Origin: Kineococcus endophyticus
Lineage (GTDB): Bacteria; Actinomycetota; Actinomycetes; Actinomycetales; Kineococcaceae
NCBI RefSeq assembly: GCF_040796495.1
Contig: NZ_JBFNQN010000013.1
Location: forward strand, 1-64,000
DNA: 64,000 bases
Reading direction: 5' to 3'
The first letter of the stretch is position 1. Each line of letters begins with the position of its first letter. Below the pieces are notes generated by a model. The model ran no database searches, was not told where the DNA came from, and saw only the letters and a program-made list of their open reading frames with translations. Below are positions 23,434 to 35,285 of the stretch, piece after piece. The position numbers and the translations under genes were made by a program.

Positions 23434-23462
23434 CTCAAGCGCCCCCGGGGCCCGGCCGATGA
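23434..23462 (+). promoter_or_regulatory. Sigma-28-like promoter before pilT
   Basis: CTCAAG (23434-23439), 15-base spacer, GCCGATGA (23455-23462), ending 67 bases before the pilT ATG. The -10 part is one base from the sigma-28 consensus GCCGATAA. The same motif with 14-15-base spacing precedes pilA1, the minor pilin genes and pilM. Confidence 0.65.
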
Positions 23463-23529
23463 GCACTGGAGAGCGTCGGCAGACGGCTGTTCGCTCTGTC
23501 GTGCTCGAGGTCGGGCTGTGGGGAGCGAG

Positions 23530-24933
23530 ATGGACAACGCTGGACAGGGCGGGCAGCCCGTGGAGCCGTACGTCCCGACGAACATGCGGGCCGCGGGGGC
23601 CGACGGCGTGCCGTCGGCGCGCCCGAACATCAGCGCGCTGCTGAAGCAGCTGGAGAGCGACCAGGCCGTCATCGCGGCCCCCGCCCAGCCCGAGGGCTTC
23701 GCGCTCGCCCCCGCCGTCGACGAGCGTCCGCGGCACTCCTCCGCTCCCGCCGCTGCCCACGTCCCGGTGCAGGCCGCGCCGGTCGAGCCCGTGGCGGCCC
23801 AGCTGGCGCCCGCGGTGGACGAGTACGAGGTCTCCCCGCTCGTGACGAGCGGCGGCGAGGACCTCGACGTGCCCGTCCGCGTCAACGACGTCCTCATCAG
23901 CGCCCTCGAGATGGGCGCGTCCGACGTCCACCTGACCTCCGGAGCCCACCCCACCGTGCGTCTGTCCGGTGAGATGACGGCGATGGACGAGTACCCGAAG
24001 ATGACCTCGAAGAAGCTGCAGGAGGCGGTCTACGCCATCCTCACGCAGAAGCAGCGGGAGGTCTTCGAGTCCAACCTGGAACTCGACTTCGCCTACCAGG
24101 TGCCCGGGCACTCCCGGTTCCGCGTGAACGTCTACCGCCAGCGCGAGTCCGTGGGTGTCGCCTTCCGGCGCATCCCCTTCGAGATCAAGCCCCTCGAGGA
24201 CCTCGGCGTCCCGCCCGTCGTCGGGTCGTTCGCCGGCCTGCAGCGCGGTTTCGTCCTCGTGACCGGGCCGACCGGATCGGGGAAGTCGACGACGCTCGCC
24301 TCGATCGTCGACCTCGCGAACCGGACCCGCAAGGACCACATCATGACGGTCGAGGACCCCATCGAGTTCCTCCACCGCCACAAGAGCTGCATCGTCAACC
24401 AGCGCGAGGTGGGGGAGGACACCAAGTCCTTCGCCAACGCCCTCAAGCACGTGCTGCGCCAGGACCCCGACATCATCCTCGTCGGCGAGATGCGCGACCT
24501 CGAGACCATCTCGGTCGCCCTCACCGCCGCCGAGACCGGTCACCTGGTCTTCGGCACGCTGCACACCTCGAGCGCCGCGTCGACCATCGACCGCGTCATC
24601 GACGTGTTCCCGCCGCACCAGCAGACCCAGATCCGCACCCAGCTCGCCGGGGCCATCCAGGGCGTCGTCTGCCAGACCCTGTGCAAGCGCGCCGACGGCC
24701 GCGGCCGCGTCGTCGCCACCGAGGTCATGGTCGCCACCCCCGCCATCCGGAACCTCATCCGCGAGGGCAAGACCCACCAGATCGGCTCGGCCATGCAGGC
24801 CGGTGCGCAGTTCGGCATGCACACGCTCGACCAGCACCTGGCCGAACTCGTGCGCACCCGTCAGATCACGTTCGAACACGGCCTGGAGAAGTGCTCCGCC
24901 GCCGACGAGTTCCGTCGCCTGACCGGGCGCTGA
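23530..24933 (+). CDS. pilT: Type IV pilus retraction ATPase PilT
   Basis: A 467-residue secretion ATPase that powers pilus retraction. It has a PilT core with INDVLISALEMGASDVHLT, Walker A GPTGSGKST (about 247-255), the Asp box, Walker B DIILVGEMRD (about 314), the His box GHLVFGTLHT, and AIRNLIREGKTHQ, which is characteristic of PilT and not PilB. About 110 Ala/Pro-rich residues precede the core, an N-terminal extension absent from proteobacterial PilT. I chose ATG 23530 after GGGAGCGAG; the frame is open to 23422. pilC follows after 13 bases. No PilB gene is present in the window. Confidence 0.92.
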   Translation: MDNAGQGGQPVEPYVPTNMRAAGADGVPSARPNISALLKQLESDQAVIAAPAQPEGFALAPAVDERPRHSSAPAAAHVPVQAAPVEPVAAQLAPAVDEYEVSPLVTSGGEDLDVPVRVNDVLISALEMGASDVHLTSGAHPTVRLSGEMTAMDEYPKMTSKKLQEAVYAILTQKQREVFESNLELDFAYQVPGHSRFRVNVYRQRESVGVAFRRIPFEIKPLEDLGVPPVVGSFAGLQRGFVLVTGPTGSGKSTTLASIVDLANRTRKDHIMTVEDPIEFLHRHKSCIVNQREVGEDTKSFANALKHVLRQDPDIILVGEMRDLETISVALTAAETGHLVFGTLHTSSAASTIDRVIDVFPPHQQTQIRTQLAGAIQGVVCQTLCKRADGRGRVVATEVMVATPAIRNLIREGKTHQIGSAMQAGAQFGMHTLDQHLAELVRTRQITFEHGLEKCSAADEFRRLTGR

Positions 24934-24946
24934 GGAAGGACGAGAC

Positions 24947-26203
24947 ATGGCCACGATGACCAAGGCGCCGGCGCGGACGGGGCAGAAGACGTTCGACTAC
25001 TCGGTGCGTGACCGCTCCGGCAAGCTCATCACGGGGCAACTCGAGGCGTCGGACGTGCAGGCGGTCGTCAGCCGCCTGAAGAGCCAGGGCATGGCCCCGG
25101 TGTCGGTGAAGGAGTCCAGCGCCGGCAAGGGCATGCAGATGGAGATCAGCCTGCCCGGCGGAAACCGGGTCAAGCTGAAGGACCTCGCCCTGATGTCGCG
25201 GCAGTTCGCCACCATGGTGAGCTCGGGACTGACTCTGCTGAAGGCGCTGTCGATCCTGGCCGACCAGACCGAGAGCACGAAGCTCGCGGCCGTTCTCCAG
25301 GAGTGCCGCGCGGACGTGGAGTCCGGGACCGCCCTGTCGACGACCTTCGCCAAGCACCGGGACGTCTTCCCACCGCTCATGATCAACATGGTGCGCGCCG
25401 GCGAGGTCGGCGGATTCCTCGACCAGGTCCTCCTTCAGTTGGCGGAGAACTTCGAGAGCGAGGTCGCGCTGCGGGCCAAGGTGAAGTCCGCGATGACCTA
25501 CCCCGTCGTGGTGTTCGTCATCGCCATCATCGCGGTCGTGGCGATGCTGTTGTTCGTCGTGCCCGTCTTCGCCAAGATGTTCTCGGACATGGGTGGTGTC
25601 CTGCCGCTTCCGACGCAGATCCTTGTGTGGATGTCCCACGGGATGACGTATGCCGCGCCGGTGGGTGTCGTCCTGGTGATCCTCTTCCCGGTCCTGTGGA
25701 AGAAGGTCAAGGACCGCCGCAAGGTGCGCGAGTTCGTCGATCCCCTCAAGCTCAAGGTGCCGGTCTTCGGGATGCTTGCCCAGAAGATCGCCTTGTCCCG
25801 GTTCACCCGCAACCTCGGCACGATGCTCAAGTCCGGGGTACCGATCCTGCAGTCGTTGGAGATCGTCGGTGATGCGAGCGGCAACGTCGTCATCGAACGG
25901 GCGGCCAAGGACGTCATGGAGAGCGTCCGGTCCGGCCGGCCCCTGGCTGCACCCCTCGCGGAGCACGCCGTCTTCCCGGCCATGGTGGTGCAGATGATGA
26001 GCGTCGGTGAGGACACCGGTGCGCTCGACGCCATGCTGTACAAGATCTCTGAGTTCTACGACCAGGAGGTCGAGGCGACGACCGAGGCTCTGACAAGCCT
26101 CATCGAGCCCATCATGATCGCCTTCCTGGGGGGCATCGTCGGCGCGATGATCGTGGCCATGTACCTGCCCATCTTCAAGGTCATGGACCTCGTCCAGGGC
26201 TGA
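24947..26203 (+). CDS. pilC: Type IV pilus inner-membrane platform protein PilC
   Basis: A 418-residue GspF/PilC family membrane protein that couples the cytoplasmic ATPases to the growing pilus. Two repeated cytoplasmic domains (about 70-195 and 275-400) each precede hydrophobic segments; strong helices are at about 185-215, 225-255 and 380-410. The first repeat contains LMSRQFATMVSSGLTLLKAL and the second FTRNLGTMLKSGVPILQSL. The start is ATG 24947 with GAGGAAGGA upstream. A strong terminator follows the stop, so pilT-pilC form one unit. Confidence 0.93.
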   Translation: MATMTKAPARTGQKTFDYSVRDRSGKLITGQLEASDVQAVVSRLKSQGMAPVSVKESSAGKGMQMEISLPGGNRVKLKDLALMSRQFATMVSSGLTLLKALSILADQTESTKLAAVLQECRADVESGTALSTTFAKHRDVFPPLMINMVRAGEVGGFLDQVLLQLAENFESEVALRAKVKSAMTYPVVVFVIAIIAVVAMLLFVVPVFAKMFSDMGGVLPLPTQILVWMSHGMTYAAPVGVVLVILFPVLWKKVKDRRKVREFVDPLKLKVPVFGMLAQKIALSRFTRNLGTMLKSGVPILQSLEIVGDASGNVVIERAAKDVMESVRSGRPLAAPLAEHAVFPAMVVQMMSVGEDTGALDAMLYKISEFYDQEVEATTEALTSLIEPIMIAFLGGIVGAMIVAMYLPIFKVMDLVQG

Positions 26204-26218
26204 CCACGACCCCTTCCC

Positions 26219-26258
26219 GACGGCCCGTGAGCTCCGTGCTCACGGGCCGTCGTCGTTC
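26219..26258 (+). terminator. Intrinsic terminator after pilC
   Basis: GACGGCCCGTGAGC (26219-26232) pairs perfectly with GCTCACGGGCCGTC (26238-26251) around a five-base loop, followed by GTCGTTC. It separates pilT-pilC from the pilin genes. Confidence 0.85.
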
Positions 26259-26303
26259 CCCCGCAAAGGCATTCACCCAGTCGTGTGATCGGGCGTCCGG
26301 TCG

Positions 26304-26331
26304 CTCAAGGTCTCGCGGGCCTGGCCGATGA
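26304..26331 (+). promoter_or_regulatory. Sigma-28-like promoter before pilA1
   Basis: CTCAAG (26304-26309), 14-base spacer, GCCGATGA (26324-26331). The pilA1 ATG is 66 bases further on. It stands between the pilC terminator and the pilin gene, as expected for a separate promoter. Confidence 0.65.
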
Positions 26332-26396
26332 CATAGGTACAAGAGCCGATGCGCACCCGCGAGCGGCTCCGGAACTCACTGAAGGGGAGCATTCGA

Positions 26397-26831
26397 ATGC
26401 TCGCTCGCATCCGCAAGGCCATGGACGAGAAGGACCAGGGCTTCACCCTGATCGAGCTGCTCGTCGTCATGATCATCATCGGGATCCTGGCCGCGATCGC
26501 CATCCCGACGTTCCTGAACCAGCGCAACAAGGGCTACGACACGCAGGCGAAGAGCGACATCCGCGCCGCCCAGACGGAGATCGAGACCGCGTTCACCGAC
26601 ACCCAGGCTTACCCGGCCACCGGCAAGGTCACCTACACTGGTACCGGCGCCAAGCCGGCGGACGCAATCTGGATCAAGAAGTCCGCGAGCACGGACGGGG
26701 ACATCGTCTACAAGCTGACTGGCAGCGACTACTGCGCTGCGGTCAAGTCCAAGTCGGGGTCCTTCTTCAAGGTGACCAACACCGACTCCGGTGTTGTCAA
26801 GGTCGACCAGGCCACCAACCCCTGCGCCTGA
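26397..26831 (+). CDS. pilA: Type IV pilin (probable major pilin)
   Basis: A 144-residue class III prepilin. The prepilin peptidase site is G15|F16 in KDQGFTLIELLVV, with the conserved Glu five residues in, followed by the hydrophobic stalk helix ending AIPTFLNQR. The globular part is small, with a C-terminal pair of Cys (113 and 143) likely to form the D-loop disulfide. I chose ATG 26397, directly after AGGGGAG, rather than the frame opening at 26349. Its own sigma-28-like promoter and a GAAA-loop terminator right after the gene suggest a separately abundant transcript, as expected for the major pilin. Confidence 0.92.
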   Translation: MLARIRKAMDEKDQGFTLIELLVVMIIIGILAAIAIPTFLNQRNKGYDTQAKSDIRAAQTEIETAFTDTQAYPATGKVTYTGTGAKPADAIWIKKSASTDGDIVYKLTGSDYCAAVKSKSGSFFKVTNTDSGVVKVDQATNPCA

Positions 26832-26847
26832 CGACAGGCCAGTCAAG

Positions 26848-26880
26848 CGGCGCCCGGGAAACCGGGCGCCGTTTGATGTT
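26848..26880 (+). terminator. GNRA-loop terminator between the two pilin genes
   Basis: CGGCGCCCGG (26848-26857) pairs with CCGGGCGCCG (26862-26871) around a GAAA loop and is followed by TTTGATGTT. It probably limits read-through from pilA1 to the second pilin gene, giving a high pilA1 to pilA2 ratio. Confidence 0.85.
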
Positions 26881-26895
26881 TCCGGAGGAGGAGAC

Positions 26896-27327
26896 GTGTT
26901 TTCTCGCGAGGACAGTGCGGACTCGGAAGGGTTCACGCTCATCGAGCTGCTCGTCGTCATGATCATCATCGGAGTACTGGCAGCGATTGCGGTGCCCACA
27001 TTCCTCGCCCAACGGACAAAAGCGTTCGACTCACAGGCCCGCGCCGACGTCCGGGCAGCCCAGAACGAGATTGAGACCTACCGCGCGGGCTCGCAAACGC
27101 TCCCGGACTCGGTGACGTGGGCGACATCCTCTCCGGCGGGAGCAACAACCGTCACCGTCAAGCGGTCCAAGGACGTCCCGGCCGACGCGTCTTCCCTGCT
27201 CTACCTGTCCAGCGGTGACTCCTACTGCGTCTCCGTGCACTCGCGCTCCGGCAACTGGCTCGCCATCGCGAGCGACCGGGCTGGGGTCAACGTCCAGACC
27301 GCAGCCTGCAGTTCGGCGACGGGCTGA
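26896..27327 (+). CDS. Second type IV pilin (pilin paralogue)
   Basis: A 143-residue prepilin very similar to the first at the N-terminus: cleavage site G12|F13 in SEGFTLIELLVV, then a stalk helix almost identical to that of pilA1. The globular part differs, but keeps the SYC...C arrangement (Cys 111 and 138). The start is GTG 26896, directly after the strong GGAGGAGGAG site. It has no promoter of its own that I can see and lies behind a terminator, so it is likely made at a lower level by read-through. It may be a minor or alternative pilin. Confidence 0.88.
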   Translation: MFSREDSADSEGFTLIELLVVMIIIGVLAAIAVPTFLAQRTKAFDSQARADVRAAQNEIETYRAGSQTLPDSVTWATSSPAGATTVTVKRSKDVPADASSLLYLSSGDSYCVSVHSRSGNWLAIASDRAGVNVQTAACSSATG

Positions 27328-27361
27328 GGTTGACCCGAACGAGGGCTAGCGTGACTGCCCG

Positions 27362-27390
27362 CTCAAGGCGCGCACGGGGCTTTCCGATCA
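27362..27390 (+). promoter_or_regulatory. Sigma-28-like promoter before the minor pilin genes
   Basis: CTCAAG (27362-27367), 15-base spacer, TCCGATCA (27383-27390), ending 64 bases before the ATG at 27455. The -10 is further from GCCGATAA than in the other copies, but the -35 and the spacing are exact. Confidence 0.6.
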
Positions 27391-27454
27391 CCAATGCACG
27401 ACCCACGCGCAGCTGCACGGCGGCGCGTCCCACCTCGACACCCAGGAGTCGACC

Positions 27455-28669
27455 ATGCCGCGTCTGCGCCCCGCGGACGACCGCGACGCCGGCTTCTCGC
27501 TCGTCGAGGTCGTCGTCGCTCTACTCCTCCTCTCGCTCGTCGCGGCCAGCAGCGCGGCCTTCTTCCTGCGCAGCTCCATCGCGTCCAGCGAGCAGCAGCG
27601 CAACCAGGCCGCCTCGGCTCTCGCGACGCAGGCTATGGAGACGGCACGGTCCGTGCGACCCGCGTACCTGGTGCAGGGCCGGAACACGGCGCTGGTCCAG
27701 GCCCAGTGGACCGCCTCAAGCAGCCCGCAGAAGTCGGACACGTTCCCGACTTCTGACGCCGCCGCGAATGCATCCGCGACGCCGATGCTGCCGATGACCA
27801 CTTCGACGACCGTGTCGGGCGAGACCTACTCCGTCTCGACGTTGGTCGGGGTCTGCTTCCGCCTCCGCGCCGTGAGCTCGGACACGTGCACCAAGGCCGG
27901 TGCCGGGAACGCCAACACGACCCCGTCGGGCTACGTGAGGATGTACCGCGTCATGGTGGACGTGTCCTGGTCCACCGGCAACGCGAACCGCTGCAGCAGT
28001 GGGACGTGCACGTTCCGGACCTCGAGCCTGGTGGACCCCACCGCCGAACTGCGCTGGAGTGTGACGCCGGCGCCGGTCATTGAGCCCAGCACTCAGGGGA
28101 CGACCGCGCAGACGACCTCGTCTGCCATCACGCTGGACACGCTCGTCAACGCCGGCAACACGGACCAGAACTCCCGTCTGGTGGTCAGCTCCGTGAACGA
28201 CGGAGGAGGCGTCTTCAAGATCGATGGCGTCCCCTACAGCTCCCCCACTAAGGTCGTGGGCAGCACGCTGACCTTCACACCGCCTCTCAACACGGTGGGG
28301 ACGTACAGCGTGCGCTGGTTCGTGCGCAACGCAGACGGGCAGGCGTCCAAGACGGTCGCCATCACCATTCCCGTCGCCCCGGTCGCGAGCGCGGACTCGA
28401 TCACCGTCTCCAGGACCCTCTTGGCCGGCACCACCATCGATCCGTTGGCCAACGACAAGCCGAACTCGGGCACGTCCGTCCTGGTGACCACGCCCGTGCG
28501 CACAGGAGGGTCTTGCGTGTTGACGCGCATCGGCACTAGCAACAAGTTCTCCGTCTCGACCCCGAAGGTCACGGACAGCTGCAGTTTCACGTACACGGTG
28601 CAGGGCGCCGGAACGAACAGTGCCCTCGTCACGACCGCGACCGCCCTCACGATCAACGTGATCGCGTGA
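27455..28669 (+). CDS. PilV-like minor pilin with C-terminal beta-domain extension
   Basis: A 404-residue prepilin-like protein. The N-terminus carries a cleavage site G13|F14 in DAGFSLVEVVVALLLL and a stalk helix, as in PilV-type minor pilins that prime pilus assembly. It is far longer than a usual PilV: after about residue 205 come roughly 200 Thr/Val/Ser-rich residues that read as two immunoglobulin- or cadherin-like modules (TFTPPLNTVGTYSVRW and DPLANDKPNSGTS segments). These would project from the pilus tip. The next gene overlaps its stop by GTGA. Confidence 0.75.
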   Translation: MPRLRPADDRDAGFSLVEVVVALLLLSLVAASSAAFFLRSSIASSEQQRNQAASALATQAMETARSVRPAYLVQGRNTALVQAQWTASSSPQKSDTFPTSDAAANASATPMLPMTTSTTVSGETYSVSTLVGVCFRLRAVSSDTCTKAGAGNANTTPSGYVRMYRVMVDVSWSTGNANRCSSGTCTFRTSSLVDPTAELRWSVTPAPVIEPSTQGTTAQTTSSAITLDTLVNAGNTDQNSRLVVSSVNDGGGVFKIDGVPYSSPTKVVGSTLTFTPPLNTVGTYSVRWFVRNADGQASKTVAITIPVAPVASADSITVSRTLLAGTTIDPLANDKPNSGTSVLVTTPVRTGGSCVLTRIGTSNKFSVSTPKVTDSCSFTYTVQGAGTNSALVTTATALTINVIA

Positions 28670-29334
28670 GCGCGATAGCGCGCCGGCTGCGCGACGACCA
28701 GGGCATCACTCTGGTCGAGACGCTCGTGGCGATGATGATCTTCACGGCGTGCTTCGCGGTGTTCATCAGCGGTCTCATGGTCATGGTGCGGGACACCTCG
28801 CGCACCCAGAACGTGACGGATGCGGCGAACCAGATGCGCAAGGCCTTCAGCACCATGGACACGCAGGCGCGGTACGCGGAGTCCGTCAACCAACCCGGCG
28901 TCGTCGGCACCTCCTGGTACGTCGAGTTCAGAGATCCGGTGGTCAACGCCGAAAACCCTGAGTGCACGCAGTGGCGCTACGACGTCAGTGCCGGCACTTT
29001 GTCCACGCGGAGCTGGGACTCCACCGTCGTCGTGGCCACCCCCTGGACCGTCCTCGCTCGGGGACTGTCCACCGACCCGGGGTTGCTCACCGACAGCACC
29101 CGCCAGCCGTTCACGACAACCTTCGCTGCCTACTCCCAGGCGGACAACGCCGATCAGACGAGGCAGCGGATCACCGTGCGGCTGTCGTCCCCCCGACCGG
29201 TGGGCGACGGATCGTCGCGGACCACTGCGGAGCAGCTCACGACGACCTTCACGGCCCTCAACAGCGACACCGACTCCGACAGCAACAAGGGGTCCGCGGT
29301 GTGCGCACCCACCACCAGCAGGACAGGAGCATGA
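28666..29334 (+). CDS. PilW-like minor pilin
   Basis: A 222-residue prepilin-like protein with cleavage site G13|I14 in DDQGITLVETLVAMMIF and the conserved Glu at position five of the mature protein. The remainder looks like the PilW/GspJ group of minor pilins. The start is GTG 28666, overlapping the preceding stop. The following gene overlaps its own stop by ATGA, so the three minor pilin genes are probably translated together. It would form part of the pilus-priming complex. Confidence 0.8.
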   Translation: MSAIARRLRDDQGITLVETLVAMMIFTACFAVFISGLMVMVRDTSRTQNVTDAANQMRKAFSTMDTQARYAESVNQPGVVGTSWYVEFRDPVVNAENPECTQWRYDVSAGTLSTRSWDSTVVVATPWTVLARGLSTDPGLLTDSTRQPFTTTFAAYSQADNADQTRQRITVRLSSPRPVGDGSSRTTAEQLTTTFTALNSDTDSDSNKGSAVCAPTTSRTGA

Positions 29335-30863
29335 CGATGCGGATCATCGTGCGCGCCGCGCGCCGTCGCTTCGCGACGTCGCAGGCGCACTCCGAGGAGG
29401 GGGCGGCACTGCTCCTGGTCATGACCTCGATCCTCGTCACGACTGCCCTGAGCATCCTCATCCTCGGCCTCGTCATGAGCCAGATGCTGCCAACGCAGTT
29501 CCAGGCGAAGCGGGTCCAGACGATCGCCACTGCCCAGGCCGGCATCGACGCGGCGACGTCACAGATCCGGACGGCGATCGGCTCGACGAACAACGGGACG
29601 TCCTTCGGTGGCAAGAACCTCCTGCCCTGTCACCTCGCCGGGTCGTCGAACGGTCAGACCTACGACGTCACCATCACGTACTACGACAGCGATCCGACGG
29701 AACTGCCGGTCGCCGAGCAGGCGGTCCACAGCATCTCCTGCACACCCGGGTCGGGAACGCAGTTCGTACCCTCGCACGCCCTCCTGCTCTCCAAGGCTGT
29801 CGGCGCTTCGATCCGCGGTACGACGCTGGGGAACCGCTCCCTCCAGAGCATCTACTCCTTCGAGCTGGACAACGGCAACATCCCGGGTGGTCTCATGTGG
29901 ACCGCGCCCGCCAAGTCGTACTGCCTGAAGGCGGACTCTGCCACGGCTGGGGCCCAGGTGAAGTACATCTCCGCCGCGGACTGCGTCTTCAACGACCCAC
30001 TCCAGATGTTCGTCTACAACACCGACTACACGCTGGTCCTCGCAAGCACGCTGAAGACGACGCCCCTGTGCATCCAGGGCAGCACCACGGGCAATGTGAC
30101 CGTCGCTCTGCAGGTCTGCAACGGTGGGACGCCCTCCCAGTTGTGGAGCTACGAAGGTGGCGCGCACTTCCGCGGTCAGAACAGCGGCAACACGAACTAC
30201 GGCAGCTACTGCTTGAGTGCCGGGTCCAACATGAGCAACCTCGTCGGCAAGCCGTTGATGAACACGACGCAGTGTCCGGGGGACTCGGAGTGGGGGTCGT
30301 TCGCTCCCGACCCGTCCGTCGGCGCCGGGGCGGCCAGCTACAACACCAAGCAGATCGTGAACTACTACGAGTTCGGTCGATGCATGGACGTCACCAACGA
30401 GACCATCAGCTACAACCTGATGATCGTCTACCCGTGCAAGCAGGACCCCTCAGGGGGGACGAAGTTGAAGTGGAACCACAAGTGGTACTACCAGGAGAAG
30501 CTGACCAGTCCTCAGACGATCACCGTGCTCGTCAACAACGACACGTCTCAGACGTACTGCTTGACCGCGGCCTCTGCATCCACTCCTGACACCTCGGCGT
30601 ACGTCACGTTCAAGGCCTGCTCCGGTGCGGCCAACCAGCAGTTCGTGCGCGCGTACAAGACGCCCGACTACTCGGACAGCTACACCTTCACCGACTTCTC
30701 CGGGCGGTGCCTGGCGATCGGGCCCAAGTGGAACAACGGCAACTACTCGACGATCGTGTCCGCGACGTGCAACGGTGGCTCGGCACAGAAGTGGAATGCG
30801 CCTCAGCTCATCAGTGACCCGGGTGTGAGCGGGACGCGGGAGATCGTGGGGTCGACCCCGTGA
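29331..30863 (+). CDS. PilX-like minor pilin with ricin-type lectin domains
   Basis: A 510-residue protein. The N-terminus (EEGAALLLVMTSILVTTALSILIL, cut likely after G24) is of the PilX/GspK kind that often lacks Glu5. Residues about 200-500 contain repeated CL...C...Q-W modules: PSQLWSYEGG, QTYCLTAASAS, GRCLAIGPKW and AQKWNAPQ. These are marks of ricin B-type beta-trefoil lectins, probably two domains. A carbohydrate-binding minor pilin at the tip would make an adhesin. The start is ATG 29331, overlapping the previous stop; pilD overlaps its end. The lectin assignment is by motif, not by search. Confidence 0.75.
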   Translation: MTMRIIVRAARRRFATSQAHSEEGAALLLVMTSILVTTALSILILGLVMSQMLPTQFQAKRVQTIATAQAGIDAATSQIRTAIGSTNNGTSFGGKNLLPCHLAGSSNGQTYDVTITYYDSDPTELPVAEQAVHSISCTPGSGTQFVPSHALLLSKAVGASIRGTTLGNRSLQSIYSFELDNGNIPGGLMWTAPAKSYCLKADSATAGAQVKYISAADCVFNDPLQMFVYNTDYTLVLASTLKTTPLCIQGSTTGNVTVALQVCNGGTPSQLWSYEGGAHFRGQNSGNTNYGSYCLSAGSNMSNLVGKPLMNTTQCPGDSEWGSFAPDPSVGAGAASYNTKQIVNYYEFGRCMDVTNETISYNLMIVYPCKQDPSGGTKLKWNHKWYYQEKLTSPQTITVLVNNDTSQTYCLTAASASTPDTSAYVTFKACSGAANQQFVRAYKTPDYSDSYTFTDFSGRCLAIGPKWNNGNYSTIVSATCNGGSAQKWNAPQLISDPGVSGTREIVGSTP

Positions 30864-31648
30864 GCATCGTCGTCGGTGGGTGTGCCCTGTTGGGTCTCCT
30901 CATCGGGTCGTTCCTCAACGTCGTGGTCCACCGGGTTCCGCTCGGTCAGTCGGTCGTCCGGCCGGCGAGCTCGTGCCCGGGGTGCGGAGCTGCCATCCGG
31001 CGGCGTGACAACGTCCCCGTGCTGTCGTGGCTGCTGCTTCGAGGTCGGTGCCGAGACTGTCGGACTCGCATCAATGTCCGCTACCCCCTCGTGGAGCTGC
31101 TCACCGGCGCGCTCTTCGCGGCCGTCGCGGCACTGGTCGGCCCGACGTGGGCGCTGCCCGCCTACCTCTACCTGGCGGCGGTCGCCGTCGCTCTGGCCCT
31201 CATCGACCTCGACGTGCGCCGACTCCCCGACGTCATCGTGCTGCCGTCCTACGGCGTGGCGCTAGCGCTGCTGGCGATGGCCAGCGCTGGGACCGGCGAC
31301 TGGTGGGCGTTCCTGCGGGCTCTCATCGGGGGTGCGTCGCTGTTCGCCTTCTACGTCCTCATCGTGGTCGTCAAACCCGGCGGAATGGGCTTGGGCGACG
31401 TCAAGCTGGCCGGCGTGCTCGGTCTGTACCTGGCCTGGTGGGGCTGGGACGCCCTCGCCGTGGGGGCGTTCCTGGCCTTCCTGATCGGCGGTCTGGTGGC
31501 CATCCCCCTCGTGCTCTTCGGTGGCGCCGGTCGGCGTTCCAAGATGCCTTTCGGGCCGGCCATGTTGGCGGGGGCCTTGGTGGCCCTGTTCGTCGCCGAA
31601 CCCGTCGTCACCTGGTACACGGGCCTGTTCGGGCTCGGCCAGGCCTGA
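30860..31648 (+). CDS. pilD: Prepilin peptidase / N-methyltransferase PilD
   Basis: A 262-residue bifunctional membrane enzyme that cleaves prepilins and methylates the new N-terminal Phe. The methylase part near the N-terminus has two zinc-type CxxC pairs (C39/C42 and C64/C67). The aspartyl protease Asp residues are in LIDLDVRRLPD (about 116-124) and in GMGLGDVKLAG. About seven to eight membrane helices are visible. The start is GTG 30860, overlapping the lectin pilin stop. It closes the minor pilin unit. Confidence 0.92.
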   Translation: MSIVVGGCALLGLLIGSFLNVVVHRVPLGQSVVRPASSCPGCGAAIRRRDNVPVLSWLLLRGRCRDCRTRINVRYPLVELLTGALFAAVAALVGPTWALPAYLYLAAVAVALALIDLDVRRLPDVIVLPSYGVALALLAMASAGTGDWWAFLRALIGGASLFAFYVLIVVVKPGGMGLGDVKLAGVLGLYLAWWGWDALAVGAFLAFLIGGLVAIPLVLFGGAGRRSKMPFGPAMLAGALVALFVAEPVVTWYTGLFGLGQA

Positions 31649-31677
31649 AACGACCAGCAATACCCCGCGCAGAGGGT

Positions 31678-31706
31678 CTCAAGGGCCCTTTCGCGACACC
31701 CGATAG
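31678..31706 (+). promoter_or_regulatory. Sigma-28-like promoter before pilM
   Basis: CTCAAG (31678-31683), 15-base spacer, CCCGATAG (31699-31706), in the 109-base gap between pilD and pilM. It ends 51 bases before the pilM GTG. Confidence 0.65.
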
Positions 31707-31757: not shown

Positions 31758-32804
31758 GTGCCCGCTAGGAACGCGGTCGGTCTCGACATCGGTACCTCGA
31801 GCGTGCGCGCCGCTGAGCTGTCCTACGGACGCGACGGCATCACGCTCGAGAAGTTCGGGCAGGTCGCCCTCCCCCCGGGCGCCGTGGTGGACGGCGAGGT
31901 CGTCGACCGCGACGCCGTCCGCACCGCCCTGAAGTCCCTCTGGAAGGGCAGCGGCTTCACGGCCAAGCGCGTCGCCCTCGGGGTCGCGAACCAGCGGGTC
32001 GTCGTCCGGCAGATCGACCTGCCGTGGATGACCCGTTCCGAGCTCAAGGAGTCGCTGGCCCTGCAGGTCCAGGACTACCTCCCCATGGCGGTGGAGGACT
32101 CGGTGCTGGACTTCCACGTCACCGAGGAGCTCAACGGACCCGAGGGCCGGCAGCTGCGCGGACTCCTCGTCGCCGCAGCACGCGAAACGGTCATGTCGAA
32201 CGTGGCGGCTGTCCAGGACGCCGATCTGCGTGTGACCTCGGTCGACCTGACGTCCTTCGCGGTGCTGCGCAGCGCAGGTCGCCAGCACAGCGAGGTCGCC
32301 ACGGAGGCCCTCCTCGACATCGGATCGCGCGTCTCCAACCTCGTCATCCACTCCGGAGGGACCCCGCGGTTCGTCCGCATCCTCCTGTCCGGCGGGCAGG
32401 ACGTCACGGACGCCGTCGCCGAGCGGCTGGGTGTTCCCGCAGCCTTGGCGGAGGCCATCAAGCGGGGGACGGCCGGTGACCTCAACCCCCAGGAGGCGGA
32501 ACTCGCCGCCTCCGCGGTGCAGTTGATGACCGAAGTCTTCGTCGACGAGATCCGCAGCTCGCTGGACTACTACGGCGCGTCCAACGCGCAGTTCCCGGTC
32601 GAGCGCATCCTCCTGTCCGGTGGCGGGTCCCTCCTGCCTGGTCTGGCCTCGCACCTGGAGCAGGTCACCCGTCGCTCCGTCCACGTCGCCGACGTCCTCG
32701 GCGGTGTCCGCGTCGGCCGCACCGGTCTCGACGACGACCAGCTCGCCGCGATCCACCCGCTGGCGGCCGTGCCCGTCGGCCTGGCCCTCGGAGTCATCTC
32801 ATGA
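31758..32804 (+). CDS. pilM: Type IV pilus assembly protein PilM
   Basis: A 348-residue actin-like (FtsA/PilM) protein that forms a cytoplasmic ring and binds the N-terminal tail of PilN. The first phosphate motif GLDIGTSSVRAAEL is at 6-19, the second in LLDIGSRVSNLV at about 190, and the adenosine motif RILLSGGGSLLPGL near 280. The start is GTG 31758 after a GAAGGAGG site. The next gene overlaps its stop by ATGA. It begins the pilM-N-O unit. Confidence 0.92.
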   Translation: MPARNAVGLDIGTSSVRAAELSYGRDGITLEKFGQVALPPGAVVDGEVVDRDAVRTALKSLWKGSGFTAKRVALGVANQRVVVRQIDLPWMTRSELKESLALQVQDYLPMAVEDSVLDFHVTEELNGPEGRQLRGLLVAAARETVMSNVAAVQDADLRVTSVDLTSFAVLRSAGRQHSEVATEALLDIGSRVSNLVIHSGGTPRFVRILLSGGQDVTDAVAERLGVPAALAEAIKRGTAGDLNPQEAELAASAVQLMTEVFVDEIRSSLDYYGASNAQFPVERILLSGGGSLLPGLASHLEQVTRRSVHVADVLGGVRVGRTGLDDDQLAAIHPLAAVPVGLALGVIS

Positions 32805-33502
32805 GCCTGCAGATGCAGACCACGGGCACGCAGTTCAGCGTGGCCCGCGTCAACCTGCTGCCGGCGGAAGTCGACGCCGCACGTGGCGGCCGCACGCTGA
32901 AGGTGGGACTGGCCGCCGGGCTCGCGGTCGTCGGTGCCTTCATCGCGGCCGGGTGCGTCGTGACCGCCGGGCACGTGACCCAGGCGCAGGACGCTCTGGA
33001 CGCAGAACAGGCCAAGACCACGCAGCTCCAGCGTGCGCAGGCGGCCTACGCGGAGGTGCCCGAGGTCCTCGGGCAGCTCCGGACAGCGCAGGCGGTCGAC
33101 GCCGTCGTGTCGGGTTCGGGTCTGGACAGCTACGCGCTCCTCGACCGCGTCGCGGCGACGACCCCGGACGGGGTCCAGTTCACGAGCATCGCCCTGAAGT
33201 CGCAGGCAACGGCCTCCACCACGACTGCCGCCGGCGCGACGGCCGCGGCAACAGCGGCTGCGGGGGCCGACCCCCTGGCGGTGTCCGGTCGAGGAACCCT
33301 CTCGGTCACGGGGCAGACGACGGACCAGGCGCTCGTCGTCGCGTGGATGAGCCAGACGGACGCGACAGACGAGTTCGCCGACGTCCGCCTCGCCAGTTCG
33401 ACGCTCGACCCCACCACCAAGCTGATCACCTTCACCGCCACCGCAACCGTGACCGTGGACGAGACCACGGCGGCCGCTTCCACCGGAGGTGCCACCTCAT
33501 GA
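32801..33502 (+). CDS. pilN: PilN-like pilus assembly protein
   Basis: A 233-residue bitopic protein. The cytoplasmic tail contains RVNLLPAEVDAAR, the INLLP-type motif that docks into PilM. One membrane helix (about 35-58), a coiled coil (about 60-100) and a small periplasm-side ferredoxin-like domain interrupted by Thr/Ala-rich linkers follow. The start is ATG 32801 in the pilM stop; pilO overlaps its end in the same way. It links the PilM ring to the envelope complex. Confidence 0.9.
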   Translation: MSLQMQTTGTQFSVARVNLLPAEVDAARGGRTLKVGLAAGLAVVGAFIAAGCVVTAGHVTQAQDALDAEQAKTTQLQRAQAAYAEVPEVLGQLRTAQAVDAVVSGSGLDSYALLDRVAATTPDGVQFTSIALKSQATASTTTAAGATAAATAAAGADPLAVSGRGTLSVTGQTTDQALVVAWMSQTDATDEFADVRLASSTLDPTTKLITFTATATVTVDETTAAASTGGATS

Positions 33503-34140
33503 GCACGCCCGTCTCGGACACCCGTCCGCGCACCGCACTCTGGATCGGTGGCGCCGGTGCCCTCGCGCTCCTGGCCATCATCGCCAGTTATTTCCTGTTC
33601 ATCGGGCCGCAGCGAGCGCAGGCGTCCGACCTCGCGACCGAACGCGTCGCGGCACAGGAGAAGAACGCTCAGATCGTCGCGGAGACCGACCGTCTGAAGA
33701 CGCAGTTCGCCACGCTCGGAGAGCGCAAGGCCGAGCTCGCCGCACTGCTGGCCAAGTTCCCGGCCGAAGCGGACGTGCCCGCGCTGATGACCCAGCTCTC
33801 CGCCTACAGCAGCGCGTCCGGGGTCACCATCACCGAGCTGACGACGGGCACGCCCGCCCTTCACGCCGGCACGTCCGGCGCGGAGCAGGCCTCGGGCCTG
33901 ACGATCGTCGACGTCCCGGTCACGCTGACGATCGCCGGCTCCTTCAGCGGCACCGAGCTCTTCCTCAAGAACGTGCAAGCCGACATGCAGCGCTACTTCA
34001 CGGTGACCTCGGTCACCGCCACGACCGGCTCCGAGATCGCCGGCGGCTCCGTGAGCACGCAGGTCGAGGGCGTCGTCTACGTCGTGCGCGATCCCGCGGC
34101 GACGACCACCACCGCGTCGACCGGAGGGACCACCTCGTGA
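33499..34140 (+). CDS. pilO: PilO-like pilus assembly protein
   Basis: A 213-residue bitopic protein with one membrane helix (about 13-35), a coiled coil (about 40-85) and an extracytoplasmic ferredoxin-like domain (about 95-195) with the PilO-like segment SAYSSASGVTITEL. It pairs with PilN in diderm systems. The start is ATG 33499, four-base overlap with pilN. The gene after it overlaps in turn by GTGA. It ends in a Thr-rich tail. Confidence 0.88.
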   Translation: MSTPVSDTRPRTALWIGGAGALALLAIIASYFLFIGPQRAQASDLATERVAAQEKNAQIVAETDRLKTQFATLGERKAELAALLAKFPAEADVPALMTQLSAYSSASGVTITELTTGTPALHAGTSGAEQASGLTIVDVPVTLTIAGSFSGTELFLKNVQADMQRYFTVTSVTATTGSEIAGGSVSTQVEGVVYVVRDPAATTTTASTGGTTS

Positions 34141-35285
34141 GCGGCCTGTTCTCGTCCGGACCCGACGACCAGGGGGAGACCCTCCCGGCCTTCGACGACA
34201 CCGAGACCCCGCGCGGGTCCAAGCGGGCCCTCCTGGCGGGAGTGGCCGCGCTGGCCGTGCTCGCGGGCGGGGGTGGAGGCCTCTTCTGGCTGGCTGGGAG
34301 CCCGGTCGCCGACGCGTCGGCCGTGACGCAGCCGAGGGGATCCGCGGCTGCGGACACGCCCTCGCCGACGTCCGGGGAGGCCACGTCGCCGTCCATCGCG
34401 CTGAGCGGTCGGGAGATCGTGGCCGCCCCTGCCGACGACAGCGGCGTCTCCGCCGAGGACCCGACCGCTGCCCCGACGTCGGCGGCCTCTTCGTCCACCA
34501 CCACCACCACGACCTCGTCGTCGGCAGCGCCGAGCGCCCGTCCGGCGACGGGGAGCGGTGGGCGGACCCAGGTGACCCCAGCCCCGGCTCAGACCACGAA
34601 GCCGACGACCAAGCCGGTGCCGGCGCCGTCCACGGCCGCCCCGTGGCAGCCCGGTCAGGCCCGCTTCGAAGAGATCCCGGAGGGCAGCACCGACGGGACC
34701 GGGCGGTTCACGCTGGCCGTGGACAGCCGCAACCCCGTGACCGGCACCCTGGCTGCCGGGGGGCGTGTCCCCTCCACGTCCACCGTGTACCAGCCGCACG
34801 GCACGACGAGTCGTCGGGACATGACCGAGGCAGAGAAGGCGGCGTGCCAGGACCAGGTGCGCACGGCGGCGACCAGTGAGGCCGCCGCAGCCGTCAACCG
34901 GGCGTCCGACAACTGCACCACGACCGTGGCGTACGTCTGGCGGTCCGTGTTCGTCCCCTCCAGCCAGGCCGCTCTGGCCGCGAAGGGGCAGGAACGCACG
35001 GGGTGGCTCGTCGCGGCCGGTACGACCCTCCCGGACGCCGTCATGGGCAAGGTCACCGGAACCGTCCGTCTTCTTGCTCAGCGCGACAAGCTGTTCCTCG
35101 TGCAGGTCAACCGCGACCAGGCCGTCTGGATCGCGGCGGGGGCTGCAGTGCCGGGCACCCCGCTCGTCCTCACCGGCGTCGGTCTCTCGGAGATCGAACG
35201 TGGCGATGTGGCGGTCTTCACCAACGGCGGAACCAAGTACTTCACAGCTGTCGGCGGCGGCGAAGACGTCGGCGTCTCCTTCTGA
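34137..35285 (+). CDS. PilP-position membrane protein with Ser/Thr/Pro linker
   Basis: A 382-residue protein of unknown family. A short cytoplasmic tail and one membrane helix (about 30-54) are followed by about 120 Ser/Thr/Pro/Ala-rich residues suited to crossing the cell wall. An outer domain (about 190-382) with two Cys (in KAACQDQ and DNCTTT) ends in a small beta domain with LLAQRDKLFLVQVN. It sits exactly where diderm clusters have pilP and overlaps pilO by GTGA. PilP normally contacts the PilQ secretin, which a monoderm lacks, so a different outer partner is likely. The CWB2 gene just downstream is a candidate. Confidence 0.7.
   Translation: MSGLFSSGPDDQGETLPAFDDTETPRGSKRALLAGVAALAVLAGGGGGLFWLAGSPVADASAVTQPRGSAAADTPSPTSGEATSPSIALSGREIVAAPADDSGVSAEDPTAAPTSAASSSTTTTTTSSSAAPSARPATGSGGRTQVTPAPAQTTKPTTKPVPAPSTAAPWQPGQARFEEIPEGSTDGTGRFTLAVDSRNPVTGTLAAGGRVPSTSTVYQPHGTTSRRDMTEAEKAACQDQVRTAATSEAAAAVNRASDNCTTTVAYVWRSVFVPSSQAALAAKGQERTGWLVAAGTTLPDAVMGKVTGTVRLLAQRDKLFLVQVNRDQAVWIAAGAAVPGTPLVLTGVGLSEIERGDVAVFTNGGTKYFTAVGGGEDVGVSF

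Follow-up and report, generated by a model that had tools for sequence, protein, structure and literature searches.

Results

The DNA analysed here, which we call the window, is a 64,000-nucleotide stretch of the Kineococcus endophyticus genome, and it carries a pilus locus on the plus strand. pilT (23530-24933) encodes a PilT/PilU family ATPase and is followed by pilC (24947-26203; T2SSF, PF00482, 223 bits), the prepilin gene pilA1 (26397-26831; PF07963) and a second prepilin gene, pilA2 (26896-27327; PF07963). The minor-pilin unit contains a minor prepilin gene (27455-28669), which matches PF07963, scores over the cut-off of a prepilin-domain model and falls below that of the PilV model, together with a ricin-type lectin-domain frame whose true start is unsure (28962-30863; PF00652, 58 bits). 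The prepilin peptidase gene pilD (30860-31648; PF06750, PF01478) precedes pilM (31758-32804; PF11104, 164 bits) and pilN (32801-33502; PF05137, 35 bits). At the place expected for pilO, an open frame (33489-35285) had no Pfam or NCBIfam match over cut-off. The joint presence of pilT, pilC, prepilins, pilD, pilM and pilN is that of a type IVa pilus locus, and a PilB-like candidate lies elsewhere, on contig C11. PilM of the window is 77% identical to that of K. indalonis and 76% identical to that of K. vitellinus, the only two named matches, which marks the host as Kineococcus-like. We considered whether the window pilT could be PilB, and this was ruled out by NCBIfam (TIGR01420, the PilT/PilU model, 488 bits against a cut-off of 319).

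With its ricin-type beta-trefoil domain, the product of the lectin frame could be an adhesin at the pilus tip. A frame that overlaps it (28820-30586) had no family match.

A pattern scan of the window found four matches to CTCAAG-N14/15-NCCGAT, all on the plus strand, which we call predicted class A promoters. They precede pilT (23434-23460; CTCAAG, 16 bases, CCGAT), pilA1 (26304-26329; CTCAAG, 15 bases, CCGAT), the minor-pilin unit (27362-27388) and pilM (31678-31704); pilA2 itself lacks such a site. The mean chance expectation for this pattern is 0.05 sites, none of 100 dinucleotide shuffles reached four, and the looser form TCAAG-N14-16-CCGAT was also found four times against 0.11 expected. 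CCGAT ends 69, 67, 66 and 53 bases before the start codons of pilT, pilA1, the minor prepilin gene and pilM, respectively.

A preliminary description of this DNA had reported four such sites, had estimated well under one chance occurrence of TCAAG-N14/15-CCGAT and had placed each site 50-70 bases before the first gene of its unit; our counts and distances bear out all three statements, and Pfam and NCBIfam matches back its gene names (pilT, pilA1, minor pilin and pilM). It had also called the sites exact copies. This holds for the two short blocks but not for the inner 15-16 bases, which differ among the four sites, and the pilA1 site is one base shorter. Because the inner bases vary, the sites are shared two-block signals and not duplicated DNA. 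The start positions it gave (23434, 26304, 27362 and 31678) were correct, and its end positions overshoot CCGAT by two bases. Lastly, it had likened the -10 half to the FliA/WhiG consensus. The sigma-28-type -10 consensus is reported as GCCGATAA (PMC8325347), and CCGAT resembles it, but the window sites lack the trailing AA and have CTCAAG in place of TAAA as the -35 block. The distance between the blocks is fixed to within one base, with CCGAT 15-16 bases from CTCAAG at four of four sites.

The assembly as a whole (5.04 Mb) contains 26 matches to CTCAAG-N14/15-NCCGAT, compared with one for the reversed-pattern control. For each of the 22 sites outside the window, we looked at the likely gene that comes next. 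Three encode chemoreceptors, one a PAS-domain protein and five c-di-GMP enzymes (GGDEF and/or EAL). One site each lies before a second PilT-family ATPase gene, before a response regulator gene ahead of flhA, and inside the flagellar operon. The remainder precede genes for an LGFP-repeat amidase, an alginate-lyase-like protein and six others, or look intragenic or gene-less (two sites, L015 and L024). Motility, pili or c-di-GMP account for 12 of the 22. Since 116 diguanylate cyclase domains are reported for K. radiotolerans (PMC2587704), the share of c-di-GMP genes is notable but not extreme. When CCGAA was allowed in place of CCGAT, only 10 matches were found genome-wide against 4 in the reversed control, with 4 of the 10 in the flagellar island. 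The surroundings of rsiG, whiG and the genome's own fliA showed no class A site.

At 8 of the 26 sites, a coding-like frame has a possible start codon exactly 9-10 bases after CCGAT, compared with 154 of 8000 random positions that were not limited to gene starts. Four of these eight frames have no earlier start codon, and in the other four the start is a choice. This geometry fits leaderless transcripts that would start where the -10 block places them.

To gauge conservation, we surveyed 12 pilus loci, one of them the window, for the relaxed pattern [CG]TCAAG, 15-16 bases, CCGA within 200 bases upstream of each gene. Class A was found before pilM in 12/12 loci (11/12 with the strict pattern) and before pilA1 in 12/12 (6/12 strict). 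Before pilT, the relaxed pattern was present in 9 of 11 testable loci, a count that leaves out L063, whose contig ends within pilT. The minor prepilin gene had it in 5 of 10 testable loci, the other two having given no prepilin match. Before pilC and pilD, the same search found class A in 0/12 loci each. Rows for pilA2, which cross-match pilA1, were left out, and the fetched loci stop at pilM and so do not include pilN. In two genomes of another family, strict sites precede PilB-like, pilT, pilA and pilM genes (G033) and pilT, a pilA copy and pilM (G015). G026 has five sites, none before a clear target and one within an EF-G-like frame (read by eye). G049 has six. A PilT2 orthologue follows one of them, and another lies within a long frame, about 870 bases ahead of that frame's GGDEF-EAL match.

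We also built a weight matrix from 38 pilus-locus sites in the 12 genomes. Matrix and relaxed patterns were made after sites had been seen; no flagellar-island site was used in training, though some were known beforehand. Because the 38 training sites were picked by pattern, their spacing carries no weight as evidence. At thresholds of 12, 14, 16 and 18, the matrix found 22, 16, 13 and 13 sites in a region of 139 kb that includes the flagellar island, compared with 2, 2, 2 and 1 in the reversed control of that region. In 320 kb of control DNA it found 5, 4, 0 and 0 (reversed control 7, 4, 4 and 1). At thresholds 16 and 18, 13 sites around the flagellar island stand against 0 in the control DNA. 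Chance as the origin of the sites is ruled out by the shuffles, the genome-wide count and this matrix test.

Two sigma factors of the FliA/WhiG family are encoded in the genome. The first, WhiG, scores 438 bits against the equivalog model NF004935 (cut-off 343), and its gene is near genes read as rpsB, pyrH and frr. The second, a FliA candidate, lies just under its family cut-off (187.8 against 189.6), and its gene is near flagellar hook-associated and flagellin genes. In region 4, the aligned stretches of both keep ESR-x-x-Q. All 12 genomes of the family encode a WhiG-type sigma factor (TIGR02479, 281-285 bits) and a second one (175-191 bits), and the attempt to separate WhiG from FliA by co-occurrence within the family failed for this reason.

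The flagellar genes carry two promoter classes. Class A (CTCAAG, usually a gap of 16, CCGAT) is found before pil genes, flgB and flhA, and class B (CTCAGG, a gap of 15, CCGATG) before fliC and flbD. All eight genomes examined have YT[CA]AGG-N15-CCGAT, and not CTCAAG, upstream of a flagellin gene. We tallied both classes within 250 bases upstream of the best orthologue of each gene. fliC had class B in 7/8 genomes and class A in 0/8; the eighth has class B before another flagellin copy. flbD had class B in 7/7, 84-94 bases upstream, with class A farther out (208-239 bases) in four. fliS had class B in 2/8. Class A was found before flgB in 7/7 genomes (class B in 0/7), before the gene divergent from flgB in 7/7, before flhA in 3/3, fliQ in 2/3 and the response regulator gene in 1/2. 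Neither class was found in these 250 bases before fliD, fliF, flgE, flgK or motA. Only 1/8 genomes has class A before fliA, so class A does not visibly feed class B. In the sequence of K. endophyticus itself, four class B sites lie in the 139 kb flagellar island, one of them with no recognised flagellar gene after it, compared with one in 542 kb outside. No class B site was found in the 12 pilus loci.

The gene divergent from flgB encodes a 695-residue protein (L043:5945-8032, minus strand; G000:C8:64945-67032) whose only Pfam match is below cut-off.

The preliminary description had proposed that the pili are controlled by a sigma-28-type factor. This is supported by the two sigma-28-family genes and by the enrichment of the motif before flagellar and chemotaxis genes; the description had named the absence of either as a refutation. 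It had further named the motility/sporulation sigma factor as the one responsible, and here the family is right but the singular is not. With two candidates present, and with fliC, the usual FliA target, carrying the other promoter class, the sporulation-type WhiG is likelier than FliA to act on the pil genes. FliA is the usual sigma factor for flagellar filament genes, which likewise points to WhiG for class A.

FliA could instead read both classes on its own, as variants of strength or timing, with the pili being ordinary FliA-dependent motility genes and WhiG and RsiG governing something else. We regard this as unlikely. The two classes do have the CCGAT block and TCA[AG]G in common, fliA lies within the flagellar island, and the pili of Actinoplanes have been called sigma-FliA-dependent. 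However, the classes split by gene wherever they were found, most clearly at fliC and flgB, and class B is missing from every one of the pilus loci surveyed.

A survey of 198 genomes of the order, in which sigma type was assigned by bit score alone, also for the proteins of 235-268 bits in families f9 and f10, bears on the same question. Motif and control counts were 294:27 in the Kineococcus family itself (n = 12). Outside it, 37 genomes with both sigma factors gave 526:85, 17 with just the WhiG type 137:13, five with just the FliA type 58:6 and 127 with neither 617:312. Because the last group shows a two-fold background, we dropped the order-wide counts at face value and made comparisons within families. 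In f9, two genomes with only the WhiG type gave 18:0 and six with neither gave 17:16 (Fisher P = 2.8e-4). In f17, two complete genomes with only FliA gave 20:3 and eleven with neither 54:19 (P = 0.26). In f8, three genomes with WhiG and RsiG and no FliA found (76-94% complete) gave 41:0, and one with FliA and RsiG and no WhiG found gave 9:0.

The excess in FliA-only genomes would favour FliA as the sole reader, but it is due to two genomes of lower completeness (24:2 and 9:0), in which whiG may be missing on that account, and the enrichment in f9 genomes with the WhiG type only speaks against that reading. Alternatively, both sigma factors might read class A through overlapping specificity, with shared or sequential control. 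An excess in genomes with either sigma factor alone, and the ESR-x-x-Q common to region 4 of both, agree with such an overlap, which we nevertheless think improbable, as a full overlap could hardly keep two promoter classes so sharply apart. Given the two-fold coding background in genomes with neither sigma factor, the motif might also be no promoter, but a site for protein binding or a product of chance or coding. This we hold to be very improbable given the genome-wide excess over the reversed control, the conserved position before unit-leading genes only, and the possible start codons at a fixed distance downstream. Together, the order survey, which is thin with one family contrast of two and six genomes, and the two-class split lean towards WhiG as the reader of class A.

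K. endophyticus also encodes an RsiG-family protein, which scores 74.9 bits as a whole against PF22802 (cut-off 27), with 60.8 and 24.5 bits for its halves, the second being below cut-off. No PF22802 protein was found in 14 control genomes. Within the Kineococcus family, 11/12 genomes have RsiG (E up to 1e-6), and none was found in the twelfth, a 700-contig assembly. WhiG aligns to the sigma chain of PDB 6pfj (388 bits), and RsiG aligns over both of its motif stretches to the chain named AmfC protein, which we take to be Streptomyces RsiG. These stretches, EADLSYARRLIQGRLD and EQELSADRHRVQEAMD, lie in one frame and are both exact to E(X)3S(X)2R(X)3[Q/H](X)3D, reported as the c-di-GMP-binding motif of RsiG (PMC8325347).

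Discussion

We consider it probable, from sequence comparison, that the four sites in the window are -35/-10 promoters of the sigma-28 family for type IVa pilus units, with WhiG reading class A under RsiG and c-di-GMP and FliA reading class B. A sigma-28-family factor would then start four pilus transcription units from these sites, and class A would define a genus-wide regulon of pil genes, the flagellar basal-body operon, flhA, chemoreceptors, c-di-GMP enzymes and the second PilT. At high c-di-GMP, the twin-motif RsiG would lock WhiG inactive. As c-di-GMP falls, WhiG would be freed, and the pilus units, basal-body operon and chemoreceptors would be switched on together. The c-di-GMP enzymes within class A would provide feedback, and FliA would add the filament and motor-linked genes through class B. 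These data suggest that one sporulation-type sigma factor, possibly checked by c-di-GMP, may switch on pili and swimming gear together. The two promoter classes would also let one predict which sigma factor starts which gene.

In the zoospore-forming actinobacterium Actinoplanes missouriensis, the pil and flagellar clusters are reportedly under WhiG-like/FliA-family sigma factors (Kimura 2019 and other work, cited in PMC8325347), and the predicted sigma-28-family control of pilus and flagellar genes in Kineococcus is similar. The passage on Actinoplanes places pili and flagella under WhiG-like factors and gives RsiG as absent (PMC8325347), whereas Kineococcus has RsiG. The type IV pili of Rubrobacter radiotolerans are described there as being under RsiG-(c-di-GMP)-WhiG (PMC8325347). 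Kineococcus resembles Rubrobacter in having WhiG and RsiG, and flagellar-type promoters in several units of the pil cluster and before c-di-GMP enzyme genes. Unlike Rubrobacter, with its single-motif, dimeric RsiG and TAAA as -35 block, Kineococcus has a twin-motif RsiG as in Streptomyces, FliA with a flagellar island, and CTCAAG. Because the Rubrobacter and Actinoplanes cases are published, the idea of pili under sigma-28-type factors is not new, and Kineococcus is a variant of it. Among the matches listed in our literature search, no paper dealt with Kineococcus RsiG, WhiG promoters or pilus promoters; what is new here relative to those matches is the pair of promoter classes and the fact that a motile lineage whose pilus locus is of class A encodes a twin-motif RsiG.

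Both proteins of the Streptomyces WhiG/RsiG complex in PDB 6pfj have their like in Kineococcus. The Streptomyces switch is reported to govern sporulation, whereas the candidate targets in Kineococcus are pili and flagella. Late flagellar promoters of FliA (sigma-28) are matched by the CCGAT block, by fliA in the island and by class B before fliC, but Kineococcus differs from that system in having a further class, upstream of basal-body and pilus genes. The K. radiotolerans genome paper, in the section cited, reports no FlgM and states that regulation of the motility island could not be fully discerned (PMC2587704). According to a 2013 review, what WhiG does in motile simple actinobacteria had not been analysed (PMC4255298). 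WhiG under RsiG and c-di-GMP is a specific candidate both for the missing FlgM and for motility-island regulation in Kineococcus.

Tentatively, we propose that Kineococcus splits its motility genes, with WhiG (under RsiG and c-di-GMP) as early master through CTCAAG-N16-CCGAT and FliA confined to filament and motor-linked genes through CTCAGG-N15-CCGATG, and that RsiG-WhiG control of pili and motility predates its role in sporulation. Published RsiG proteins are single-motif with pili (Rubrobacter) or twin-motif with sporulation (Streptomyces), and a twin-motif protein connected with pili and flagella would link the two cases. If our proposal holds, RsiG-WhiG control of pili and motility would have persisted after the duplication that gave RsiG its second motif, the sporulation role in Streptomyces would be a later take-over, and anti-sigma control would be supplied in a lineage reported to lack FlgM.

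Several further genes deserve mention. MshEN domains are linked to c-di-GMP in pilus ATPases, and the unlinked PilB-like ATPase has one (L087:17601-19271, minus strand; G000:C11:47601-49271); a search of the 600 bases upstream of its gene gave no class A site. The second PilT-family ATPase, which lies outside the pilus locus (L025:3034-4206; G000:C11:119233), scores 456 bits against a cut-off of 319. Its class A site ends 10 bases before the start codon, and a 75% identical copy in G049 is also preceded by a site. At two other sites, L021 (G000:C9:169599) and L028 (G000:C16:61776), the inner bases are nearly kept in relatives as well, and the genes that follow encode small proteins without a Pfam family. 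Finally, the LGFP-repeat cell-wall amidase (L014, site G000:C7:187502) and the alginate-lyase-like protein (L009, site G000:C1:412699), both with class A sites, could help in separating clustered cells.
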